Positions 35,937 through 47,189 of a stretch of 64,000 nucleotides of DNA are shown one piece after another. Every line of letters starts with the position of its first letter. Positions within the stretch are counted from its first letter, which is position 1. Under the pieces are notes generated by a model that was given only the letters and a program-made list of their open reading frames with translations, was not told where the DNA came from and made no database searches. The translations under genes and the position numbers were made by a program. Origin of the DNA: Hymenobacter monticola (GTDB lineage: Bacteria > Bacteroidota > Bacteroidia > Cytophagales > Hymenobacteraceae); assembly GCF_022811645.1 (NCBI RefSeq), contig NZ_CP094534.1:1240001-1304000 (forward strand). The letters run 5' to 3'.

Positions 35937-36506
35937 ATGACGCCTACTGACTCTTTGCTTTGGTGGCCGCGGTTGGTTGTTGCTATACTCGTGCTGTTGG
36001 CAGGTCATCAAGTGCATGCGCAACCTACTAGAAAGCTACCTGAGAAAAGGACTGTAACGCCCTCCACGGCTCCACAACCGTCGAACCAGTTGTCAGCGTT
36101 CAAAACGGAGGAAGCCCTCCGAATGCTACTCCGCGCCGATTCGATAGCCTCCCAACGCCAACGAGCCAAATTAGGACCTGAGTCGAGCGGTCTGGTAGTG
36201 GACCAGACCATCACCAAAATAGGCCACGACTTCTACGACCAGTTTTACAGCCGGTGGGAAGCCCCAGCCGGCATCAGCGACTTCACTGTCATTGTGGGCG
36301 AGAAACCTTCGCGTGGCAATAACGCCATCATCACGGTAACCGTCAACGACGAAGAACTGCTGGAATTTCCCTTGCAGGGCAAAGAAGACTTGGTTGCCGA
36401 AGCATCCCAGCAAGCAGTTGAATACGCAGCAAATTCGCTGCAGCAAGCCCAATATCTTAGCCAACAGTTGGAGAGTGGCAACAAGCAGCCCCTTGAATCC
36501 TACTAG
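35937..36506 (+). CDS. csgE: Curli assembly factor CsgE
   Basis: A 189-residue protein from the ATG at 35937; a start at 35910 is possible. A signal segment (WWPRLVVAILVLLAGHQVHA) is followed by a 70-residue linker absent from the shorter enterobacterial CsgE. The CsgE core is at about 85-180: QTITKIGHDFYDQFYSRW and DFTVIVGEKPSRGNNAIITV are the family hallmarks. In E. coli, CsgE caps the CsgG channel on the periplasmic side and delivers curlin. It opens the csgE-csgF-csgG run, with short gaps of 31 and 45 bases. The upstream region is strongly AT-rich. Confidence 0.93.
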   Translation: MTPTDSLLWWPRLVVAILVLLAGHQVHAQPTRKLPEKRTVTPSTAPQPSNQLSAFKTEEALRMLLRADSIASQRQRAKLGPESSGLVVDQTITKIGHDFYDQFYSRWEAPAGISDFTVIVGEKPSRGNNAIITVTVNDEELLEFPLQGKEDLVAEASQQAVEYAANSLQQAQYLSQQLESGNKQPLESY

Positions 36507-36537
36507 CCTTTTCTCCTTCCCTTTAACATCCTACCTT

Positions 36538-36963
36538 ATGAAACAAATATTGACTCTTCTTGGCATCATTACCTCGTTGCTATTAGGCCAATGCGCTCAA
36601 GCACAAGACTTTGTGTATGAACCCAAAAACCCTGCTTTCGGCGGCGGCAACACCTTCAACTACTCGTGGCTGCTGAGTTCGGCCCAGGCGCAATCCACCA
36701 TTGTAGACCCAGCCACCAAAACCACGGCCGCCACCCAAGACCCGTTGGCTAGTTTCACTGCCAGCCTCAACCAGCAGGTGCTGGCACAGTTAAGCAGCCG
36801 CCTCATTGCCAACCAATTTGGTCAAGGTGCCATCAAGCCCGGCAATTACACCGTTGGCAATTATCAAATTCAAATCACGCCCGGTGCAAGCGGCATCGGT
36901 GTGCAAGTCACCGACACTTCCACCGGTAACCAAACCACTATTACTATCCCGAACGGCTTCTAA
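36538..36963 (+). CDS. csgF: Curli assembly factor CsgF
   Basis: A 141-residue secreted protein from the ATG at 36538, with a signal peptide (LTLLGIITSLLLGQCAQA). The mature start DFVYEPKNPAFGGG and the following LLSSAQAQ match the channel-binding amino-terminal peptide of E. coli CsgF, which plugs into the CsgG pore and forms a second constriction. The rest (GNYQIQITPGASGIGVQVTD) matches the exposed carboxy domain that couples secretion to nucleation by CsgB. Confidence 0.95.
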   Translation: MKQILTLLGIITSLLLGQCAQAQDFVYEPKNPAFGGGNTFNYSWLLSSAQAQSTIVDPATKTTAATQDPLASFTASLNQQVLAQLSSRLIANQFGQGAIKPGNYTVGNYQIQITPGASGIGVQVTDTSTGNQTTITIPNGF

Positions 36964-37008
36964 GTCTGGATGGTACAGCAAATTTTTATTTCTTTTCCTA
37001 GTATTTAC

Positions 37009-38421
37009 ATGCTCCTGCGTCGATTGCTGACGGCCGCAGTGCTCCTGTTACCGGCAGGGCTCGGCGGCTGCGCTTCTTATTTTCACCAAACTTTTATAAA
37101 CCCCGAACCGGCTCGGCTCGGGGCCGAAGTAAACGGGAACGAACTCTGGCGCCACTTGCCCCCCGCTCGGCAGCGGGTGGTGGTCGCGGTTTATAAATTC
37201 CGTGACCAAACCGGGCAGTACAAGCCCCAAGCGAACGGCTCGAGCTTTTCGACAGCCGTGACTCAGGGCGCCACTACTATCTTATTGCGAGCCTTGGAGG
37301 AGTCGCAATGGTTTGACCCTATCGAGCGAGAAAACCTAGGCAATTTGCTGAACGAACGCAAAATCATTCGTTCCACGCGCGATGAGTACGCTCAGCAAAC
37401 CGGCCAGCGCCAACCCAACCTGCCGCCTTTGCTTTTTGCGGGCATCATCTTGGAAGGCGGCATCATCTCCTACGATTCCAACATCATTACCGGCGGGGCT
37501 GGCCTGCGCTATTTTGGGGCAGGCGCTTCGGGCCAGTACCGCCAAGACCGGGTAACGGTTTACCTGCGGGCCATCAGCACTAATACGGGCAAGATTTTAA
37601 AGACGGTCTATACGTCGAAGACAATTCTTTCTCAGCAGGTCGACGCCAGTTTGTTTCAATTCGTCGCCTTCAAGCGCCTGCTCGAAACCGAAACGGGTTT
37701 CACTTACAACGAGCCCAGCGAAATGGCTGTGAAAGACGCCATTGAAAAATCCGTACAGTCGCTAATTTACGAGGGCTTACTGGTCAACATCTGGGCCTCG
37801 GCGGATACGGCTGCTACCCGGAGCCTGCCTATACAAGCATACTTGCGCGAAAAACAAGAAAACCTATCAATTGACCCATTGGGCCGGCAAACCACTTTCC
37901 GCCGCCGGCCGCTGGGCGTTGGCTTCAATGGAGCGGTGCAGCTTTATCAAGGTGATTATGCTTTGCCTCAGTATCGGGCTGCCGGCGAATTGACCTTGCG
38001 CTACCGCTTGGGCGATGGGTACTTTAGCACATTTTTGAACGTAGGGCGGGGCGCACTAGCCGCGGGCCCCAACGGAAACTATTTCACCCAGCGGTTCAAT
38101 TACGCCGACGTAGGCCTGTTAGCTTGCCTGTTTCCATACGACCGGTTCTCGCCTTACGTGCTTGCGGGCGTCGGAGCATCGTCCAAAAGCTTTTCGAACT
38201 TTAGCAGTTCCAATAACCTGGTGCCGCAAGCGGTGGTAGGTGTGGGGGCCGAATTTTTAGTATCGTCAAAGCTTGGCATTCAAGCAGGTATCGATAACCA
38301 TTTTTACCTCAACGACCGCATCGACCAAGTCGTGCAAGGGCGTTATAACGACTCCTACTGGGGGGGGCGATTGGGCTTAAACCTTTACATTGGTAAGGCC
38401 AAGTCAAAAAATTATTTATAA
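37009..38421 (+). CDS. csgG: Curli secretion channel CsgG with extra C-terminal barrel-like domain
   Basis: A 470-residue outer-membrane lipoprotein from the ATG at 37009; the lipobox gives lipidated Cys21 (LGGCASYF). Residues 35-265 match CsgG: VVVAVYKFRDQTGQYKP, NLLNERKIIRSTR, ILEGGIISYDSN and GLRYFGAGA. CsgG forms a nonameric ungated pore for curlin. Two oddities are visible. The constriction loop reads KPQANGSSFSTAV, where E. coli has Tyr51, Asn55 and Phe56; only Phe is kept and one residue is added. About 170 extra residues (300-470) follow, with amphipathic strands and an end like that of small outer-membrane barrels (GGRLGLNLYIGKA). The E. coli protein ends near residue 262 of the mature form. 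Confidence 0.93.
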   Translation: MLLRRLLTAAVLLLPAGLGGCASYFHQTFINPEPARLGAEVNGNELWRHLPPARQRVVVAVYKFRDQTGQYKPQANGSSFSTAVTQGATTILLRALEESQWFDPIERENLGNLLNERKIIRSTRDEYAQQTGQRQPNLPPLLFAGIILEGGIISYDSNIITGGAGLRYFGAGASGQYRQDRVTVYLRAISTNTGKILKTVYTSKTILSQQVDASLFQFVAFKRLLETETGFTYNEPSEMAVKDAIEKSVQSLIYEGLLVNIWASADTAATRSLPIQAYLREKQENLSIDPLGRQTTFRRRPLGVGFNGAVQLYQGDYALPQYRAAGELTLRYRLGDGYFSTFLNVGRGALAAGPNGNYFTQRFNYADVGLLACLFPYDRFSPYVLAGVGASSKSFSNFSSSNNLVPQAVVGVGAEFLVSSKLGIQAGIDNHFYLNDRIDQVVQGRYNDSYWGGRLGLNLYIGKAKSKNYL

Positions 38422-38568
38422 AAAATAAGGAATTTATTCAATAAGTTAATCTCCTGATTTTCAATACGGGTGCTTTTTTAAGTTCAGCTTCAAGGCTAGG
38501 TATAGTTATACATTTATTTGAAGAATATAACTATTATCACAATGGATTAAATTTTTTTTATTGGAGCG

Positions 38569-38601
38569 TTTGGATTTGAGAATATTCTGATTTTAACTTT
38601 G
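38569..38601 (+). promoter_or_regulatory. Promoter of the curlin genes
   Basis: TTTG at 38569-38572 and TAACTTTG at 38594-38601 are 21 bases apart, a full consensus match. The leader to csgA1 is about 60 bases. The 248-base interval between csgG and csgA1 is very AT-rich. Confidence 0.78.
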
Positions 38602-38669
38602 TCTTGTTCCCATCAGAACACAATTCAATCTTAGACTCCAAACATTTTCCCATCCTTCATTTCAATACA

Positions 38670-39692
38670 ATGAAAAAGCTTACCCTCCTCGTTGGTGCCG
38701 CCCTGCTGGTGAGCGCCGCCCACGCCCAAGTGCGCACCTCGGCCCCCACCACGAACCCGACGGCCCCCACCACGCGCACGGCCCCCACCACGGCCATGAC
38801 CGCCGCCGGCACCCCCCAAGCCATCGCCCGCCCCGACCGCGCCACCGCCTCCACCATCGACAACGACTCCTACGTGCAGCAAGTAGGCGATGGCCAGCAG
38901 GCCGTGGTGAGCCAGACCGGCACCGGTCGCAACACCGCCGACATCCTACAAAGCCCCAGCGCTGTAACCGCTGCAGGCGTTACCAACGACCGCAACTTTG
39001 CTTCGCAAACGCAGGTGTCGACTGGCATGAAGACCAGCGCCGACCAGAACATTGCCAATATCCGCCAGCACGGCGCTACCAGTGCTGCTTTGCAAAGCCA
39101 GAATGGCACTCGCAACGTAGGCGATATCCAACAGGGCAACTACGGCCCGGCTTACCACAGCGAGTCTAACTACGCTAGCCAGACGCAGACGGGCAACGAT
39201 AACAGCGCTAATATCTATCAGAATACCAATTCCAGTGCCGCAGGCACGGGCGCAGGCCAAAACTCAGCCGTGCAAACCCAAACGGCTAATGGCAACCGTG
39301 CTTATGCCTTGCAGGAAAAAACCAACAACACATTGGTTCAAACCCAGTCGGCAGCTTCCAACAATGCTGATACCCGGCAGTACGGTACCGACAGCTATGC
39401 CAAGCAAGAACAGTCGGGGGTTGGCAACCGTGCTTCTATCCTTCAAGGAGATGACTTGGGCGCATCAGGCTCTTCCAACCAAGCCATCCAAATGCAGAGC
39501 TCGGGCAATAACGACGCCCGCATAGTGCAAAAGACGAGCGACAGCTACGCTCGCCAGGAGCAAAGCGTAGGCAGCGGCAACTTTGCCGACACCTATCAGG
39601 GCGGCGCAATTGGTACCAACGCTTCGTACAACATGACCACGCAGACCGGCAGCAACAACACCGTTTACGTGACCCAGGGCGCGGCTCGCTAA
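38670..39692 (+). CDS. csgA: Curlin major subunit, copy 1
   Basis: A 340-residue curlin from the ATG at 38670. After a signal peptide (LTLLVGAALLVSAAHA) comes a Thr/Pro/Ala-rich segment of about 35 residues, which is likely to be the channel-targeting part. From about residue 58 there are around ten curlin repeats of the Q-x-G-x4-N-x-A-x3-Q type, e.g. YASQTQTGNDNSANIYQ and YAKQEQSGVGNRASILQ. Such repeats stack as an amyloid beta solenoid outside the cell. The protein is more than twice as long as E. coli CsgA. Its first 290 bases are nearly identical to csgA copy 3. Confidence 0.9.
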   Translation: MKKLTLLVGAALLVSAAHAQVRTSAPTTNPTAPTTRTAPTTAMTAAGTPQAIARPDRATASTIDNDSYVQQVGDGQQAVVSQTGTGRNTADILQSPSAVTAAGVTNDRNFASQTQVSTGMKTSADQNIANIRQHGATSAALQSQNGTRNVGDIQQGNYGPAYHSESNYASQTQTGNDNSANIYQNTNSSAAGTGAGQNSAVQTQTANGNRAYALQEKTNNTLVQTQSAASNNADTRQYGTDSYAKQEQSGVGNRASILQGDDLGASGSSNQAIQMQSSGNNDARIVQKTSDSYARQEQSVGSGNFADTYQGGAIGTNASYNMTTQTGSNNTVYVTQGAAR

Positions 39693-39698
39693 TTTTTA

Positions 39699-39739
39699 GC
39701 GCCCCTGTTGTCTTCTTTCAGTTAGGGCAACAGGGGCGC
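39699..39739 (+). terminator. Intercistronic hairpin after csgA copy 1
   Basis: GCGCCCCTGTTG and CAACAGGGGCGC form a perfect 12-base stem with a 17-base loop, 7 bases after the stop. The T run that follows is weak, so partial termination or 3'-end protection is likely. Confidence 0.7.
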
Positions 39740-39815
39740 ACTTGATTTTAGCACTGGCTAGCTAGCCATGCCGGCAACTAAATGCTTCACCAATTCCCGC
39801 TCTCACTTCCTTAAC

Positions 39816-40850
39816 ATGAAAAAGCTTACCCTCCTCGTTGGTGCCGCCCTGCTGGTGAGCGCCGCCCACGCCCAAGTGCGCACCTCGGCCCCCACCACGA
39901 ACCCGACGGCCCCCACCACGCGCACGGCCCCCACCACGGCCATGACCGCCGCCGGCACCCCCCAAGCCATCGCCCGCCCGGCCGTTGGCGGTGCCACTAG
40001 CGCCACCAGCCCCATCGACAACGACTCCTACGTGCAACAAGTGGGAGACAACCAGCAGGCCGTGGTGAGCCAAACCGGCACCGGCCGCAACTCTGCCGAT
40101 ATCGACCAGAGCCCCAGTTCCGTGGTGAGCAGCGCTACGGGCGCAATCCGGGACAACAACTTCGCTTCACAAACCCAGGTATCTACCGGGACCAAAGCGA
40201 GTGCCCGGAACGTGGCTGTGATTGGCCAGCACGGTGCCACCAGCGCTGCCATCCAAGAGCAGAACGGCACAGGTAACGTTGGGCAAATCTCGCAAGGCGG
40301 AATGGGCGTGCATAGCGAAGACAACTATGCTAAGCAAACCCAAAGCGCCTCTGGCAACAGCGCCAAAATTGACCAAAACACGACTACCAGTTCCAATGCT
40401 GGCAACCCGGCTGGCGATAACTCGGCTACGCAAACGCAAACTGCCAGCAACAACCGCGCTTACGTTAATCAGCTGTATTACAACAACGTCTCGGAACAGT
40501 CTCAATCCGGCGAATCCAACAGCGCGACGGCTACCCAATGGGGGCATGACAACTACGTGAAGCAGGACCAGTCAGGTTCATCGAACAAAGCTTCTATTTC
40601 GCAGAGAGCTTCTAGTGGATTGGGTGCGGAGAAAAACCAAGCCATTCAAATTCAGAGCGCGAGCTCTGGCGATGCAATCATCGCCCAAAAGACAGCCAAC
40701 AACTTTGCCAGCCAGAACCAAAGCGGTGGCATTGGTAACTACGCCGACACCTACCAGGGCGGCATTACCGGAACCAATTCCTCATACAGCGTAAGCACGC
40801 AGACCGGCAGCAACAACACCGTTTACGTGACCCAGGGCGCAGCTCGCTAA
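39816..40850 (+). CDS. csgA: Curlin major subunit, copy 2
   Basis: A 344-residue curlin from the ATG at 39816. The first 54 residues, covering the signal peptide and Thr/Pro-rich segment, are identical to copy 1, also in DNA. It then departs (AVGGATSATSPIDND) and carries about ten repeats, e.g. NYAKQTQSASGNSAKIDQ. The last 44 bases before the terminal codons are again identical to copy 1. No separate promoter was seen, so it probably depends on read-through from copy 1. Confidence 0.9.
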   Translation: MKKLTLLVGAALLVSAAHAQVRTSAPTTNPTAPTTRTAPTTAMTAAGTPQAIARPAVGGATSATSPIDNDSYVQQVGDNQQAVVSQTGTGRNSADIDQSPSSVVSSATGAIRDNNFASQTQVSTGTKASARNVAVIGQHGATSAAIQEQNGTGNVGQISQGGMGVHSEDNYAKQTQSASGNSAKIDQNTTTSSNAGNPAGDNSATQTQTASNNRAYVNQLYYNNVSEQSQSGESNSATATQWGHDNYVKQDQSGSSNKASISQRASSGLGAEKNQAIQIQSASSGDAIIAQKTANNFASQNQSGGIGNYADTYQGGITGTNSSYSVSTQTGSNNTVYVTQGAAR

Positions 40851-40888
40851 TCCGTAGTCTTTGCTTCACACCAGAATGCAAAGGACAA

Positions 40889-40933
40889 GTGCGCCAAGTA
40901 CAAGGCTATTCAAAAGCTTAGTGCTTGGCGCAC
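40889..40933 (+). terminator. Intercistronic hairpin after csgA copy 2
   Basis: GTGCGCCAAG (40889-40898) pairs with CTTGGCGCAC (40924-40933). There is no T run, so it may be an RNA-stability element. Confidence 0.6.
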
Positions 40934-40973
40934 CTAGGGTTATCCCACTATCGTTTTTCGCTTCACACATTTC

Positions 40974-42038
40974 ATGAAAAAACTTACCCTCCTCGTTGGT
41001 GCCGCCCTGCTGGTGAGCGCCGCCCACGCCCAAGTGCGCACCTCGGCCCCCACCACGAACCCGACGGCCCCCACCACGCGCACGGCCCCCACCACGGCCA
41101 TGACCGCCGCCGGCACCCCCCAAGCCATCGCCCGCCCCGACCGCGCCACCGCCTCCACCATCGACAACGACTCCTACGTGCAGCAAGTAGGCGATGGCCA
41201 GCAGGCCGTGGTGAGCCAGACCGGCACCGGCCGCAACACCGCCGACATCCAGCAAAGCCCCAGTGGCTTGTCTACGCTACTCCCTGGTGTTAACGGTGGC
41301 AACTTTGCTTCGCAGACGCAGGTGTCCACGGGTTCAAAAGCCAGCGCAGACCAGAACATCGCCAACATTCGTCAATACGGTATCACCAGCGCCGCCATTC
41401 AGGAGCAAGGTGGTATCCGCAACACGGCGGTTATCCAACAGGGCAGCAGGGTACCCAATGGCCAATTCGGTATCGGAACGGCCAGCCAGCATGACTATGC
41501 CAGTCAGAAACAGACCGGCAATGACAACATGGGCCAGATTTATCAGAACAACACCAACGGCATTTCTGACAATTCGGCTACGCAGGACCAAAAAGGCAAC
41601 CATAACAACGCAATGGCGACCCAAGACTTCAGCAACCACATTTCGGTGCAGAAGCAAGGTGGTGCTGCCGGTGGCACAGGCGATTACAATAACGCCTCGG
41701 TAGCTCAGAAAGGCCAAAGCAACTACGCCAGCCAAGACCAGCAAGGCAGCTATAACAAAGCCAAAATCACACAAAACGCGCCTACGACCAGCGTGTTGGC
41801 TAGCTACTTCAACGGCGTCGGTAACAACCAAGCTACCCAGTTGCAGGTTGGCAACAACAACGAGGGCATCATTGACCAGTCGACGAGCTATAACTACGCT
41901 TCACAAAGCCAGACTCTTGGCAACAACAACTACGCCGAAACACTGCAGCGTGGCACCAACGGCATCAACTCGGCCTACAGCACGGTTACCCAACAAGGCA
42001 GTAACAATACGGCGGTTGTACACCAAGGTGCTCAATAG
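40974..42038 (+). CDS. csgA: Curlin major subunit, copy 3
   Basis: A 354-residue curlin. The first 90 or so codons match copy 1 with only a few base changes. It then has about ten repeats, including YASQKQTGNDNMGQIYQ and YASQDQQGSYNKAKITQ. It ends in VVHQGAQ in place of the QGAAR end of copies 1 and 2. With the other two it forms a tandem array that could supply fibre subunits of slightly different surface. Confidence 0.9.
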   Translation: MKKLTLLVGAALLVSAAHAQVRTSAPTTNPTAPTTRTAPTTAMTAAGTPQAIARPDRATASTIDNDSYVQQVGDGQQAVVSQTGTGRNTADIQQSPSGLSTLLPGVNGGNFASQTQVSTGSKASADQNIANIRQYGITSAAIQEQGGIRNTAVIQQGSRVPNGQFGIGTASQHDYASQKQTGNDNMGQIYQNNTNGISDNSATQDQKGNHNNAMATQDFSNHISVQKQGGAAGGTGDYNNASVAQKGQSNYASQDQQGSYNKAKITQNAPTTSVLASYFNGVGNNQATQLQVGNNNEGIIDQSTSYNYASQSQTLGNNNYAETLQRGTNGINSAYSTVTQQGSNNTAVVHQGAQ

Positions 42039-42062
42039 CGTATACTGCTTATAGTGTATACT

Positions 42063-42101
42063 GCTTAAGGTAAAGTATTCTTAGAATACTTTACCTTAAG
42101 C
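42063..42101 (+). terminator. Very stable hairpin after csgA copy 3
   Basis: GCTTAAGGTAAAGTATTC and GAATACTTTACCTTAAGC form a perfect 18-base stem with a 3-base loop, with no T run. Just before it the 12-base GTATACTGCTTA occurs twice in direct order. A second stem, AAATATGCCA (42105-42114) with TGGCATATTT (42149-42158), follows. Confidence 0.75.
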
Positions 42102-42206
42102 ACCAAATATGCCAAGCTCCGGGCTTATCTTCGAGGTAAGTTGGGGCCTGGCATATTTAGCTTAGCTACAAAGGCCTTCATTCGTTAAAACTCTCTGACG
42201 GACACT

Positions 42207-42887
42207 ATGAAACTGCTTCATCCCGTTTTGTTGCTCATTTCGATTATGTCGTCCAGTGCGGCAATGGGCCAAACTATCCGCCCATCCAGCGAAGCAGCCA
42301 CTGCCGAACAGCGCTTGGCCGAGGACTTAGGCTTGGAACGGCTTCCCGACAATGCCATAATCCCTACGCCAGCCAATGGGCGAAACGTATCGACGTTGCA
42401 ACAAAATGGCCGCGATAATACTGCGGCAATCAACCAGCAAACTCTTTCTTCGCTGGGGAATCAAGCTTATGTTACCCAAGCTGGGGAATACAATGGGCTT
42501 AGCCTAATGCAAATGGGCGGAGGCAACATCGCCAACGTAACGCAAAACGGCAATAACAACAACGCTGAGTATACGCAAAACGGTCAGGGCAATTCTTCTA
42601 CGATTACGCAAAAGGGAAGAAACAACAGAATCCAGGGCCTGTCGGCCGAAAGCGAATTTCAGTTGCAGGGTGATTATAACACCATGAAAATCACGCAAGA
42701 GGGTTCCAACAATACGGTCAAGGGTGAAATCCGGGAGAACAGCCGGGTGTACGACATTCGCCAAAATGGCAACAACAACACCCTTACTCAGATAGAGACC
42801 AGCCCGCAAGCTCCGAAAGGCTACACAGTGGAAATGAAGGGGAGCGGAATCAATCTTACCATTCAGCAAGGCCGAGTAGGGCAATAA
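42207..42887 (+). CDS. csgB: Curlin nucleator-like protein (CsgB-like)
   Basis: A 226-residue secreted protein with signal peptide LLHPVLLLISIMSSSAAMGQ. It lacks the Thr/Pro-rich segment shared by the three curlins. After a 40-residue acidic spacer it has about seven curlin-type repeats, e.g. NIANVTQNGNNNNAEYTQ and SSTITQKGRNNRIQ. The carboxy end is more charged and less regular. By analogy with CsgB it is proposed as the surface-bound nucleator; the assignment rests on position, shorter repeat region and charge. Confidence 0.8.
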   Translation: MKLLHPVLLLISIMSSSAAMGQTIRPSSEAATAEQRLAEDLGLERLPDNAIIPTPANGRNVSTLQQNGRDNTAAINQQTLSSLGNQAYVTQAGEYNGLSLMQMGGGNIANVTQNGNNNNAEYTQNGQGNSSTITQKGRNNRIQGLSAESEFQLQGDYNTMKITQEGSNNTVKGEIRENSRVYDIRQNGNNNTLTQIETSPQAPKGYTVEMKGSGINLTIQQGRVGQ

Positions 42888-42917
42888 ACGATGCACCTTT
42901 ATGGGTCTTGACATCCT

Positions 42918-42957
42918 AAAAAGACCGATTGCACTATCGCGCAATTCGGTCTTTTTT
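42918..42957 (+). terminator. Intrinsic terminator of the curlin genes
   Basis: AAAAAGACCGA and TCGGTCTTTTT pair around an inner TTGC/GCAA stem and end in six T. This is the only strong terminator after csgA1 and marks the end of that transcript. Confidence 0.9.
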
Positions 42958-43005
42958 GACGTGGTGCCACTAACTCATTTTCAAAGAAAAGAACTGTTTG
43001 ACAAG

Positions 43006-43013
43006 TACATTTG
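43006..43013 (+). promoter_or_regulatory. -7 box of the csgH promoter (TACATTTG)
   Basis: An exact TAnnTTTG match after the curlin terminator. It supports the ATG at 43040 over the TTG at 42998 for the next gene. Confidence 0.5.
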
Positions 43014-43039
43014 TAACTTTCTTTCCCAACTCTTGCCTT

Positions 43040-43414
43040 ATGTTTTTCATATTGTTACTATTATCGGCCTTGCAGGAGCCAGAGCGCCCCGCTCCCTGCA
43101 AGGCCAGGCTTGAAATGCAACAGCAGGATGGATTGCTAACCGTTGTGGGTCATTGCCGCAATATGTTATCTACTTCCAGCAAGTACCGCTACGAATTATC
43201 GTTTTTGCGCGAAGGGAAAAACGGCCGCTCCCAGAATACGCAAGGAGGAGAGTTTGAACTGGGTCCGCAGCAAGACGTGTCGCTCTCGCGGACCTGTGTG
43301 AATGCTTCTCAACAAGATAGTTACCGCATACACCTTCGAGTACTGGACCTGCATGGCAACGTTGTAGCTCAAGATTCAGTGTTTCAACATTCTACTCCTG
43401 CAAATTCAAAATAG
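43040..43414 (+). CDS. csgH: CsgH-like curli chaperone
   Basis: A 124-residue protein from the ATG at 43040. A short hydrophobic start (MFFILLLLSALQ) is followed by an Ig-like beta domain of about 95 residues. The stretch KYRYELSFLREGKNGRSQ with TQGGEFELG resembles the CsgC/CsgH family, in which a small periplasmic Ig-fold protein prevents early amyloid formation by curlin. Two cysteines (CRN and RTC) could form a disulfide. It lies between the curlin genes and a propeller lipoprotein. The assignment rests on pattern memory and needs a profile search. Confidence 0.72.
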   Translation: MFFILLLLSALQEPERPAPCKARLEMQQQDGLLTVVGHCRNMLSTSSKYRYELSFLREGKNGRSQNTQGGEFELGPQQDVSLSRTCVNASQQDSYRIHLRVLDLHGNVVAQDSVFQHSTPANSK

Positions 43415-43434
43415 TTTTTTCGCATTTATCGCAT

Positions 43435-44997
43435 ATGAGCTTTTTACCTTTTGTGACGTGGCCCCGGGCGCTTGGGGTCTGCATGTCATTGATGTGTCTG
43501 ATTTTGCTAGGTGCTTGCCAAGACGACCTGGTTGAGCCTGCCTATTTCGGCTCCATTTCGGGGACAGTGCTTGACGCCCGTACGAACCTGCCATTGGCAA
43601 ATGCGTCGGTATCTACCAATCCGGCTACCAGCACATACGTCACCAACGCTCAAGGCAAATTTGAAATCAAAGACGTTCCGGCAGGTAAAGTATCGATTAC
43701 GATAACCAAGGCTGACTATCAACAGACGGTTTCTAACGTTACGGTTAGCGACAGCCAAAACGCCGATGTAACCATTCAATTGCTCAAGTCTACGTCATCT
43801 ACTACCGTCTCAGCTCCAGATAGGCCAGTGCCTGCAAATCAGACTACCGGTCTGCCCAATACTGTCCGCCTCGCGTGGCGGCCCGTGAATGCAGTAGCCA
43901 GTGACTCCCTGACTTATGAGGTATCGCTATTTGAAAGCAACAACACATCTGCTCGTACTGTCGCGCTAAAATCCCCCCGCGACACCACCGTAACGGTAAG
44001 TAACCTGCGCTACAATACCACCTATTTCTGGTATGTGACGGTTCGAAACCCTGCTGGGGCCTCAGCCCGCAGCCCTATTTGGACTTTTCAAACCGGCAAT
44101 ATTATCGACAACCGTTACTTATTTGTGCGTAAGGCGGGGAATAACAGCGACGTTTTCGCTGCCGACATAACTGGGGCCACTGTAACCCAACTTACTTTTA
44201 CAACAGCGCTGGAAGCGGCTCCCCAGCTTAATCCAAATCGAGACCTAATTGCTTACACTTCCAATGTTACAGGCGATTGGCAGCTGTACACCATGAATCG
44301 AGACGGGTCGAATCAGCGACAGATTACGTTCACCGGTTCCTTTGCGGTCAATAATGGGGGGCAAGCCGGTGCTTTCCGCTGGTCGCCGGATGGCTCCCAA
44401 TTGATTTACTGCAGTTCGGATAAGCTGTATCGCATCAACCGTGATGGACTAAGCCGTACGATTGTTGCCACAGCTCCTTTAGGCAAAACATTCCGTGAAT
44501 GTGACTGGACAGCCGAAAACGGGGGACATATTGTTGCGCAGGTTGTTGGAACCAATATTTACGACTCCGCTATCTACCTGTACGATGCCAATGGTACTCA
44601 GCAAGGCGCCGGAGCGTTCATTCCGGATACGCCTGGCCGCCTCGACTCTCCAAGCTTCAGCTTGGATGGGCGAAGCATAGTCTATACCCAGGACATCGCT
44701 CAGTTTGAATCTTCCATCACCGTTGGCCGGCAGATAAACGCGCATATATTTATCAAACGCCTTGACGGGTCCGCTACAGTAGATGTATCGGCGGGCATTA
44801 CCGGGTCTGGAACAACCACTGGTAAAACGAATGGTACCAATGATTTAACACCTCGCTTTTCTCCTACGGGGAGTAAATTAATCTTTGTGAATCAGGACAA
44901 CGACGGGGTCGCCACTCCGGAAATCTGGACTTGTAACCCTGATGGGAGTGGTCGCATCAAGTTGTTTGACAATGCTTCTATGCCTGACTGGAAGTAA
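43435..44997 (+). CDS. Lipoprotein with carboxypeptidase-regulatory, FN3-like and beta-propeller domains
   Basis: A 520-residue lipoprotein with lipobox LILLGAC (Cys27). Residues 38-115 form a carboxypeptidase-regulatory-like domain (ISGTVLDARTNLPLANASV, GKFEIKDVPAG). An FN3-like domain follows (about 130-215; RLAWRPVNAVASDSLTYEV, YNTTYFWYVTVRNPAG). The rest is a TolB/PD40-type propeller with repeats such as FRWSPDGSQLIYCS, SPSFSLDGRSIVYT and TPRFSPTGSKLIFV. It starts 20 bases after csgH and so belongs to the curli region. A role in anchoring or modulating the fibre at the surface is inferred from context only. Confidence 0.85.
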   Translation: MSFLPFVTWPRALGVCMSLMCLILLGACQDDLVEPAYFGSISGTVLDARTNLPLANASVSTNPATSTYVTNAQGKFEIKDVPAGKVSITITKADYQQTVSNVTVSDSQNADVTIQLLKSTSSTTVSAPDRPVPANQTTGLPNTVRLAWRPVNAVASDSLTYEVSLFESNNTSARTVALKSPRDTTVTVSNLRYNTTYFWYVTVRNPAGASARSPIWTFQTGNIIDNRYLFVRKAGNNSDVFAADITGATVTQLTFTTALEAAPQLNPNRDLIAYTSNVTGDWQLYTMNRDGSNQRQITFTGSFAVNNGGQAGAFRWSPDGSQLIYCSSDKLYRINRDGLSRTIVATAPLGKTFRECDWTAENGGHIVAQVVGTNIYDSAIYLYDANGTQQGAGAFIPDTPGRLDSPSFSLDGRSIVYTQDIAQFESSITVGRQINAHIFIKRLDGSATVDVSAGITGSGTTTGKTNGTNDLTPRFSPTGSKLIFVNQDNDGVATPEIWTCNPDGSGRIKLFDNASMPDWK

Positions 44998-45212: not shown

Positions 45213-47189
45213 ATGAAGACCTTTCTGGCGCTGGTGCTGGCTGTTTTTCCCGTGTTGTTGCGTGCGCAGCCTGAAAAGCCAGCGCCTATATCTTACACCG
45301 ATGCCGAGGGCCGTTTCACGCTGACCTACCCCCGTACCTGGCAACTGCGGCCCAACGCCGGGGGCGCCGACGCAGCCTTCTATGCACCGGCCACCGGACA
45401 GCCTGTGCCGGCCGTGGTAACGGTAACGACCCGCCCCCTACCCAATGCGCTGAAAGACCGGCCCCTCATTGGCCCCGGTAGCCAGGACACGCTGTGGCAA
45501 AGCATTCGCCGCCTGCCACAGGCCCAGGTCATTCAACTGGACCAGAAAAACTATGGGCGCTACGAAGAGGTGCGCTACGACTACACCTACGCCCCCGGCC
45601 CGGGCCAGGCCGGCCGCCTGCACGTGGCGGGCCGCCGTCTGTGGCGCGTGGGTTACGAGTTTGTGGTAGAATACCGCGCGGCCACCAGCCAGGACGCCCG
45701 CGCCTTGCCCGAGGGCGAGCAGTTGCTCAATTCCTTTGCTTTCACCGACAAAGCTATTGTCAGTCGCCGATACACCGACCAGGTGTGCGATGGCAAGATG
45801 TACGGCATTGCGGCCATGAGCCACCGCACCGGGCAGTGGGAAGACGACTGCCGCACCATTCACGAGTTTTCGACCGATGACCTCTCGGACGGCGCCTTGG
45901 TGCACCGGAACGCACTGCCCTTTCAGTCTTACGCCCTAGCCAAGGGCTTCGACAACTGCCTGTATTCGGTGACGAAAGCACCCACCAACCAGTCGGAGCT
46001 GGTGTATCGCTACGACCCTACTACCCGGCGGGGGGCATACACCACCTGGCAGCTGCCAGCCCAGGGTTTCGACAACATCTGGATTTCGGCGGCGACGGAT
46101 GAGCGCGGCGACTTGTATTTCCTCTCCTCCGATGCCAATAAGTTGGTGAAGGTGAGCCCCGGTGACGGCGGCACCGTGACGTTGGTCTGGACCAAAGACC
46201 CCACGCAGCAGGCCGCTTACTACCCCGAAATTGCTTTTGACGGCGCGGGCACGCACGGCAATTTCTGCCTCGACGACGCCAACACCGTGTACATGGTGTA
46301 CAGCACCGACGGCTCGCTGGTGCGCGTGGATGTAAAAACCCAGCGCCCCGCACCCGAACTGCTGGCCATTACCGGCCTGCCCAAACGCGGCGGCTATAGC
46401 GACGTGCTGCTGCAAAACGACGAATCGGGCCGGCGCCGCCTGTTTCTGGCCGGCCCGCACGGCCTCTACCGGGTCAATCTAGCCCGGCGCAAGGCCAGCT
46501 ACGTGCGCCGGGGCACTTACACTGACCTCGCGGGCTGCAACCTGTTTCGGGTAACGTACCGGTCGGCCCCACCGCTGCCCACGGCCACGGTGCCCTGGCG
46601 CGGGCGCGTGTTGAACGCCGACACCTACCTGCCCCTCACGGCGGCCGAGCTGCGCATCGGCCGCGAAACGGCCTCGGCCGTGGTGCCGCTCTCGACCGAC
46701 GCGACGTTTTCCTACGGCAGTGCGACGCCGGGCAAGCCCTACTTCTACAAAGCACAGCTGCCTGGCTTCATCGACGCCGACAGCTCCTGGACGGTGGGCG
46801 CCGGCCCCACGGTGCACGACATTCTGCTGCGGCCCCTGGCCGTGGGCACCACCCTGCCGCTGGCCAATGTGCAGTTTGAGCAGGGCCAGGCCGTGCTGCT
46901 GCCCGGCTCGGCCCGCGCCCTCAACCAACTGGTGGAACTCATGACCGACAACCCGCGCCTCACCATTGAGGTGCGCGGCCACACCGACAACGTGGGCGAG
47001 CCCGCCAAGAACGTGGCCCTCAGCGAAGCCCGGGTAGCTGCCGTGAAAGCCTACCTCGTGGCCCACGGCGTGGCCGAAACCCGCATCACCGGCGTTGGCT
47101 TCGGCGGAGCCAAACCCGCCGCCAGCAATGCCCAGGAAGTCACCCGCAAGCTCAACCGGCGCGTCGAGTTTCGGGTGACAGGGGTATGA
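45213..47189 (+). CDS. OmpA-family protein with N-terminal propeller-like region
   Basis: A 658-residue exported protein from the ATG at 45213 (MKTFLALVLAVFPVLLRAQ). Residues 20-170 resemble a PsbP/DUF1795-like domain (YTDAEGRFTLTYPRTWQL). A region of about 300 residues then has propeller-like repeats (DNIWISAATDERGDLYFLSS, GLYRVNLAR). A short regulatory-like Ig domain lies near 460-540, and the OmpA peptidoglycan-binding domain is at about 555-655 (VEVRGHTDN-type motif, here IEVRGHTDNVGEPAKN, and LNRRVEFRV). The OmpA domain should hold the protein on the cell wall. Frames beginning at 45120 lack a signal peptide at their start. A link to the curli genes is possible but unproven; a 215-base gap separates them. 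Confidence 0.88.
   Translation: MKTFLALVLAVFPVLLRAQPEKPAPISYTDAEGRFTLTYPRTWQLRPNAGGADAAFYAPATGQPVPAVVTVTTRPLPNALKDRPLIGPGSQDTLWQSIRRLPQAQVIQLDQKNYGRYEEVRYDYTYAPGPGQAGRLHVAGRRLWRVGYEFVVEYRAATSQDARALPEGEQLLNSFAFTDKAIVSRRYTDQVCDGKMYGIAAMSHRTGQWEDDCRTIHEFSTDDLSDGALVHRNALPFQSYALAKGFDNCLYSVTKAPTNQSELVYRYDPTTRRGAYTTWQLPAQGFDNIWISAATDERGDLYFLSSDANKLVKVSPGDGGTVTLVWTKDPTQQAAYYPEIAFDGAGTHGNFCLDDANTVYMVYSTDGSLVRVDVKTQRPAPELLAITGLPKRGGYSDVLLQNDESGRRRLFLAGPHGLYRVNLARRKASYVRRGTYTDLAGCNLFRVTYRSAPPLPTATVPWRGRVLNADTYLPLTAAELRIGRETASAVVPLSTDATFSYGSATPGKPYFYKAQLPGFIDADSSWTVGAGPTVHDILLRPLAVGTTLPLANVQFEQGQAVLLPGSARALNQLVELMTDNPRLTIEVRGHTDNVGEPAKNVALSEARVAAVKAYLVAHGVAETRITGVGFGGAKPAASNAQEVTRKLNRRVEFRVTGV

Follow-up and report, generated by a model that had tools for sequence, protein, structure and literature searches.

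Curli Systems and the Locus of Hymenobacter monticola

Curli are the textbook functional amyloid of biofilms, and their parts list comes mostly from E. coli. The enterobacterial system (csgBAC, csgDEFG) can be compared with a gene cluster at positions 35937-44997 on the + strand of a 64,000-nucleotide stretch of the Hymenobacter monticola genome (contig NZ_CP094534.1, positions 1,240,001 to 1,304,000), this whole stretch being called the window below. Both systems have CsgE, CsgF, CsgG, curlin-repeat proteins and a CsgC-like chaperone, which is CsgH in the window. Unlike the enterobacterial genes, those of the window form a one-strand cluster with no CsgD-type domain in the window and with three large curlins. 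Two further differences are a C-terminal barrel that extends CsgG and an additional lipoprotein of 520 residues (43435-44997, +), identified by its domains and by its association with csg genes. The association of this lipoprotein with curli genes, which is the main subject here, is well supported.

Bacteroidetes curli loci with csgE, csgF, csgG and curlins have been surveyed in the same phylum (Dueholm et al., 2012, PMC3521004). Neither a lipoprotein nor a CsgG barrel, as found here, is mentioned in the available text of that survey or of a 2016 study (Taylor et al., PMC4838910), and the word "lipoprotein" is absent from the main text of the former. It is likewise absent from the main text of a 2025 review, in which GTDB was re-screened with the known csg models and curli were noted in Bacteroidota (PMC12822426). 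No description of the lipoprotein with curli was found in the open-access literature searched, supplements being outside its scope, and this is weak evidence of absence.

The original prediction for this DNA listed csgE, csgF, csgG, three curlins, a csgB-like gene, csgH and the lipoprotein gene on one strand, and all of these were confirmed at their coordinates by Pfam or NCBIfam models, as was the gap of 20 bases between csgH and the lipoprotein gene. A CsgG pore protein, CsgE together with CsgF, and curlin-repeat subunits are present, the curli system being known here from its genes alone. The CsgG family has a single match in the genome (E 0.001). The Pfam curlin repeat was found at this locus only (genome search, E 0.01) by a search that missed curlins 1 and 2 and is hence insensitive. 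The original statement that no csgD-like regulator is present holds as far as LuxR-type DNA-binding domains go, as none of the 13 GerE matches of the genome fall in the window.

Association of the Lipoprotein with Curli Genes

In a sample of 101 Hymenobacter genomes, a full-length lipoprotein and csgF were found in the same 55 genomes, and both were absent from the other 46 (Fisher p 7e-30, kinship ignored). The lipoprotein was matched in 58 genomes altogether, over most of its length in 55, and csgH, counted at E 0.001 or better, in 52. The lipoprotein gene lies 3.4-6.5 kb 3' of csgF on the same strand for 55 of the 56 csgF copies, the exception being a second copy in a genome of short contigs (G061). 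Matches to csgH stand 71-251 bp 5' of the lipoprotein match in 49 of 53 cases. Five of the 55 csgF genomes (G002, G009, G023, G080 and G097) gave no csgH match and kept the lipoprotein; conversely, G040 and G062 gave a csgH match without csgF, that of G062 being under the cut-off.

The three other lipoprotein matches, all from csgF-negative Hymenobacter, are fragments. In two of these genomes (G029 and G043, loci L061 and L062) there is no csgF, and a csgE gene or its remnant adjoins the 3' part of the lipoprotein gene, which marks the site, to judge from its gene content, as the scar of a decayed curli locus. The third fragment (L080) is found at the end of a contig.

Outside the genus, CsgF was searched for in 241 genomes of the order (28 matches), 395 of the class (12 matches) and 395 of the phylum (50 matches, 45 above the cut-off), these samples overlapping. 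Loci were read from 59 non-Hymenobacter cases: 17 from the order, to which the class added 5 and the phylum 37. Two genomes were left out (G943 and G766), where the CsgF match (E 5e-4) was under the cut-off and lay inside frames of 594 and 1451 aa. In the first 22 loci, from the order and class, the lipoprotein was found in all 22 with a profile built from Hymenobacter sequences only. Among the 37 phylum loci, CsgG has 450-531 aa in 30 and can be aligned with the window's CsgG through its C-terminal barrel, and in 28 of these 30 the lipoprotein was found within the stretch by a profile (A3) built without any of the 37. The genomes of the other two loci (L099 and L107, the latter reaching a contig end) carry the lipoprotein beside curlins elsewhere (L131, L132). 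These two genomes, G869 and G791, were considered as exceptions with a barrel CsgG and no lipoprotein and were set aside as such, since each has a short family member beside curlins at another site; the assembly of G791 is fragmented, and there the site is on a different contig. The remaining 7 of the 37 have a CsgG of 290-322 aa with no barrel and no lipoprotein in the stretch; in their genomes the best profile matches are single generic domains of about 37-45 bits.

In total, the lipoprotein lies in the stretch in 50 of 52 non-Hymenobacter loci with a barrel CsgG and in 0 of 7 with a short CsgG (Fisher p 1e-7, kinship ignored). The neighbourhood survey that had been proposed for the lipoprotein was carried out, and its family does recur with curli genes; the proposal of a curli-associated factor is supported, with co-presence in 55 of 101 Hymenobacter genomes, co-absence in 46, and, for all 52 barrel-type loci outside the genus, a copy in a curli cluster of the same genome.

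The profiles were also run against genomes regardless of csgF. Profile A1, applied to the 241 genomes of the order, matched all 28 csgF genomes and otherwise G043 with its relic, G144 and G211, the last two through the propeller only (64-71 bits). Profile A3, applied to the 395 genomes of the class, scored no lower than 233 bits in any of the 12 csgF genomes; 11 csgF-negative genomes were also matched, none above 79 bits. The weakest lipoprotein counted (L092) scores 63 bits and lies 17 bases 3' of a curlin. A frame of 438 aa in a short-CsgG genome (G839, locus L130) reached 89 bits summed over its whole length, the match in the genome search being its propeller part (44.5 bits), and was taken for a putative TolB. 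A contig scan with strict exact peptide patterns of the lipoprotein as a single protein hit one distant fragment of a metagenome-assembled genome (L002, 33 percent) and is silent on absence. This fragment is a short family-like open reading frame (ORF) near a contig end, where csg queries matched nothing else, and it was not used as evidence either way.

The place of the lipoprotein gene within the cluster varies. In 32 of the 50 non-Hymenobacter loci, no more than 250 bp separate csgG from the start of the lipoprotein ORF, and in L059 and L070 the two overlap by 4 bases. Three of the 32 overlap csgG by 85-161 bases, which is put down to taking the longest ORF start. In the other 18 loci (L049, L057 and 16 loci of other classes) the gene stands at the end of the curlin run or after csgH; the closest csg gene upstream is of the curlin family in 15 and csgH in 3. 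The latter three (L095, L102 and L105) all belong to family f121 of another class. The position after csgH that had been noted in the window recurs, in Hymenobacter and in these three loci, but other arrangements exist beside it. A tie to csgH alone was rejected, csgH being the nearest upstream gene in only 3 of 50 loci and the lipoprotein persisting in the five Hymenobacter csg genomes without a csgH match. The csgG neighbourhood was rejected as a rule in the same way, as it covers 32 loci but not the other 18. By this gene order, the lipoprotein family is tied to the curli gene set, on the same strand, and has no single fixed neighbour.

One of the clusters found (L131, G869:C1:208000-226000) contains a csgE-like gene, several curlins and a short lipoprotein, with no match to csgF or csgG. 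It is located about 170 kb from the csgEFG genes of the same genome.

Architecture of the Lipoprotein

The lipoprotein of the window has Pfam matches to CarbopepD_reg_2 (3e-15), fn3 (1.2e-6) and PD40 (8e-19), with the lipobox cysteine at residue 28. The lipid-anchor cysteine, an acidic stretch resembling an export signal and the transthyretin-like CarbopepD_reg domain occupy 43516-43797 (+), this part being common to long and short forms. They are followed by an FN3-like domain (residues 129-220; 43819-44094, +), in which W148, Y197 and W199 are invariant in 23 aligned sequences, and by a TolB-like beta-propeller (residues 225-520; 44107-44994, +), whose best structural matches are TolB propellers. 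The TolB equivalog model TIGR02800 scores 68 bits against a cut-off of 343, and the part matched is the propeller alone. In the sources the protein is named "TolB protein" or "carboxypeptidase regulatory-like domain-containing protein".

The propeller is not present throughout the family. Among the 50 non-Hymenobacter lipoproteins, 33 are full length with the propeller and 17 are short. The short forms of family f19 retain CarbopepD and FN3 domains, while seven short forms of other classes show, by Pfam, CarbopepD-type domains and a tail without further match. The description "propeller lipoprotein", used in the original prediction, suits the longer form but not these 17, where the lipid anchor and the transthyretin-like domain remain. 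On these alignments the constant part of the protein is the lipid anchor with the transthyretin-like domain, and the propeller is optional.

Long and short forms have a similar N-terminal start, comprising the lipid cysteine, often a polar or basic residue and then acidic ones, and a G-x-hydrophobic motif; a T-T-x-P motif occurs within the domain in many forms of both kinds. The N-terminal pattern was recognized in 61 of 63 sequences, Hymenobacter included, and 43 had acidic residues at the two tested positions; this count is rough, an earlier cysteine having been caught in several. In 23 aligned sequences, position +3 after the lipid cysteine is acidic in 21 and position +4 in 18. The surface-export signal of Bacteroidetes has been described as K-(D/E)2, and in its minimal form two acidic residues come after a positive or polar one (PMC5080379). 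Acidic residues directly after the lipid cysteine were seen by eye in none of 29 CsgG proteins. From these features the lipoprotein is likely an outer-membrane lipoprotein displayed on the cell surface.

The C-Terminal Barrel of CsgG

The csgG gene (37009-38421, +) encodes a lipoprotein of 470 aa (Pfam PF03783, 1e-63) with an extra C-terminal barrel. The NCBIfam model of the E. coli-type CsgG (277 positions) stops at residue 272 of this protein. Beyond it, eight long strands are predicted by AlphaFold2 for residues 302-461 (37912-38391, +), with pLDDT mostly 82-95 and 65 at the lowest. Foldseek matches this block to outer-membrane barrels, namely NspA (1p4t, TMt 0.77), OmpA, OmpX and OmpW. Of the full-length model only this C-terminal block was used, as much of residues 20-240 had pLDDT below 50. 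The extension was found in the 52 non-Hymenobacter loci described above and in 11 further Hymenobacter loci with csgG.

In the seven loci with a short CsgG (L108, L109 and L122-L126, family f103), this protein has 290-322 aa and no barrel, the CsgF match is weak and the lipoprotein is absent. They possibly represent an older or separately acquired curli type in the phylum.

Possible Role of the Lipoprotein

We consider it about evenly balanced whether the full reading preferred here is right, namely that the locus is a Bacteroidota-type curli system (type VIII secretion) of which the lipoprotein is a standing part, acting on the cell surface at the CsgG exit, where it would hold or organise the fibre. 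The mechanism is inferred, as is the choice between the anchor and the fibre receptor offered in the original prediction. A position at that exit, perhaps docked on the 8-strand barrel, is plausible. The transthyretin-like domain would then form the base of the lipoprotein, and the FN3 domain and propeller, where present, would project outward and hold, cap or organise the fibre as it grows, in a role akin to those of CsgF and CsgB at the E. coli surface. On the inner side, CsgH would serve as the periplasmic anti-aggregation chaperone. The CsgG pore is a nonamer, and the accessory barrels may be pictured as a ring around it. An extended and rather doubtful version of this scheme treats Bacteroidota curli secretion as a distinct machine: a barrel on each CsgG subunit would ring the pore, each could hold a lipoprotein, and the resulting crown would receive and fix the fibre, the barrel and lipoprotein having arisen together and the propeller having been added or lost later.

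Within the phylum, the nearest working parallel is BtuG, a surface lipoprotein whose propeller covers the TonB-dependent barrel BtuB as a lid (PMC10404256). The likeness, a surface propeller lipoprotein paired with an outer-membrane barrel in Bacteroidota, is an analogy only and implies no membership. The seven-bladed BtuG binds vitamin B12 for uptake, whereas the lipoprotein considered here has a TolB-like propeller and its partner would be an exporter.

Several observations weigh against the preferred reading. The predicted model of the lipoprotein has a pTM of 0.56, so that the domain arrangement is not fixed by it, and as 17 of 50 relatives lack the propeller, this part is not the core function. 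The placement of the gene at the curlin end or after csgH in 18 of 50 loci does not favour docking on CsgG; the L131 cluster, where the lipoprotein occurs with a csgE-like gene and curlins apart from csgF and csgG, is as compatible with a partner in the fibre as with one in the pore. The CarbopepD_reg, FN3 and PD40 domains are widespread in the phylum. Some short forms score near the background (L092, for example, has 63 bits, where unrelated single domains reach up to 79), and the weak ones were counted because of their place in the cluster. All seven short-CsgG loci belong to f103, and the covariation of barrel and lipoprotein is therefore a single contrast. The export-signal-like motif was counted in the lipoprotein family and in CsgG proteins alone, and the profile searches scored only the best 14 candidates per genome in Hymenobacter, 6 in the order and 3 in the class.

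Alternatively, the lipoprotein could face the periplasm as an assembly factor that guides the folding or insertion of the CsgG barrel or gates the pore from inside in a TolB-like manner. Its tracking of the CsgG barrel, its TolB-like propeller and its position directly after csgG in 32 of 50 loci would fit this role. It is nevertheless unlikely: the residues after the lipid cysteine resemble the Bacteroidota surface-export signal while those of CsgG do not, and the TolB equivalog score stays far under its cut-off. TolB itself is a soluble periplasmic protein, unlike this lipidated one, and the propeller is missing in 17 of the 50 loci.

With a similarly low probability, the lipoprotein may serve at the surface as a receptor or adhesin, using the curli matrix while it binds another cell or a polysaccharide, and its link to the fibre genes would then be co-expression only. 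FN3 and propeller modules are often ligand-binding, and the gene occupies a curlin-end or after-csgH position in Hymenobacter, L049, L057 and 16 loci of other classes; a terminator-like hairpin before csgH in the window also agrees with this view. However, none of the 46 csgF-negative Hymenobacter genomes has a full-length copy, no comparable match was obtained in the csgF-negative genomes sampled from the order and class, save the relic in G043, and the constant part of the protein is the membrane-proximal domain and not the ligand-binding-like propeller. A generic CarbopepD_reg/PD40 lipoprotein carried along from an ancestral operon is very improbable, even though such domains are abundant (44 and 39 profile matches at E 1e-6 in G869 and G937), because the gene has remained among curli genes in each of its rearranged settings (downstream of csgG, of curlins or of csgH, or in the L131 cluster), is lost along with the csg genes, only 3 of 46 csgF-negative Hymenobacter keeping fragments and two of these beside a csgE gene or remnant, and has an N-terminal signature common to its long and short forms.

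CsgH and Its Neighbourhood

The csgH gene (43040-43414, +) most likely starts at the ATG at 43040, giving 124 aa. The protein scores 52.1 bits with NCBIfam NF041112 (cut-off 35), 20.3 bits with Pfam PF21112, under its cut-off of 27, and 26.8 bits with the Pfam CsgC family PF10610, just above its cut-off of 25. Its mature part has three distant cysteines and no CxC, and cysteines far apart without C-x-C are what separates CsgH from CsgC (PMC4838910). The isoelectric point (pI) of CsgH is 7.95 against 5.3-6.5 for the curlins, and a difference of this sign has been reported between CsgC/CsgH and curlins in the same study. As a Bacteroidetes sub-family of CsgH was already reported there in 2016, the csgH gene of the window is a new member of a known family.

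A terminator-like hairpin (42918-42957, +; -18.6 kcal/mol, z -4.64) lies between the csgB-like gene and csgH, and none of 200 shuffled sequences was as stable. A scan with a consensus terminator listed it on the - strand only, with 14 sites overall against 13.0 expected. Because this strong hairpin separates the csgB-like gene from csgH, csgH and the lipoprotein gene may form a short two-gene operon of their own. TAnnTTTG boxes lie 5' of csgH (43006-43013, +) and 5' of curlin 1 (38594-38601, +); both are pattern matches only, two in 11 kb being the chance expectation.

Variants of csgH were seen in other genomes. Locus L079 (G036) has two csgH genes, one 5' of csgE and the other before the lipoprotein gene. 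In L071, L072 and L073 and in L110, L116, L118 and L121 (families f74 and f42), the gene at the csgE position encodes 238-254 aa, of which the N-terminal half is CsgH-like and the C-terminal half is CsgE. NF041112 gave 7.8e-7, 1.4e-5 and 0.05 for three of these genes from f74, all under the 35-bit cut-off. A CsgH-CsgE fusion is probable in these loci, judging from the two halves; L112 and L113, also of f74, have a separate csgH in its place.

Curlins and Other Genes of the Cluster

The cluster begins with csgE (35937-36506, +; 189 aa; PF10627, 6e-24) and csgF (36538-36963, +; 141 aa; PF10614, 3e-43), which precede csgG. Four curlin-family genes follow: curlin 1 (38670-39692, +; 340 aa), curlin 2 (39816-40850, +; 344 aa), curlin 3 (40974-42038, +; 354 aa) and the csgB-like gene (42207-42887, +; 226 aa). 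The curlin repeat PF07012 is above the Pfam cut-off in three of the four, namely curlin 2 (9e-5), curlin 3 (8e-8) and the csgB-like gene (3e-10). Curlin 1 was detected solely by the NCBIfam CsgB and CsgA models, under their cut-offs (6.5e-10 with CsgB), and contains 13 QX10Q matches.

For the gene predicted to be csgB-like, membership of the curlin-repeat family stood, while an identity as csgB is not established beyond that family. With the curated NCBIfam CsgB model it gives 1.5e-13 and 50.8 bits, under the cut-off of 165. According to the 2012 survey (PMC3521004), CsgA and CsgB can be distinguished in Gammaproteobacteria only.

Near their 5' ends, the three curlin genes are identical over 155-248 bp, a stretch encoding the signal peptide and a Pro/Thr-rich leader. 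Their GC content is 0.70-0.72 in the first 240 bases and 0.54-0.57 beyond. After the leader the three genes diverge, mostly to 45-75 percent per window of comparison, curlins 1 and 2 becoming similar again at the 3' end. The identical 5' DNA suggests either a recent gene conversion or a secretion leader common to the three.

The gene downstream of the lipoprotein (45213-47189) encodes an OmpA-domain protein. It was rejected as a core part, since it adjoins the lipoprotein gene in only 4 of 17 other Hymenobacter loci (L004-L007, the closest relatives). Just 1.5 kb of flank was available for 11 of the 17 loci, and wider stretches gave the same four genomes.

Implications for Curli of Bacteroidota

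The presence of the lipoprotein with nearly every curli gene set examined in the phylum suggests that Bacteroidota build curli with an extra part, previously undescribed in the literature searched. If this is true, a standing part of curli has been overlooked, occurring with every barrel-type locus sampled in the phylum, as far as that literature shows. The finding makes the holding of the fibre at the Bacteroidota cell surface directly testable.

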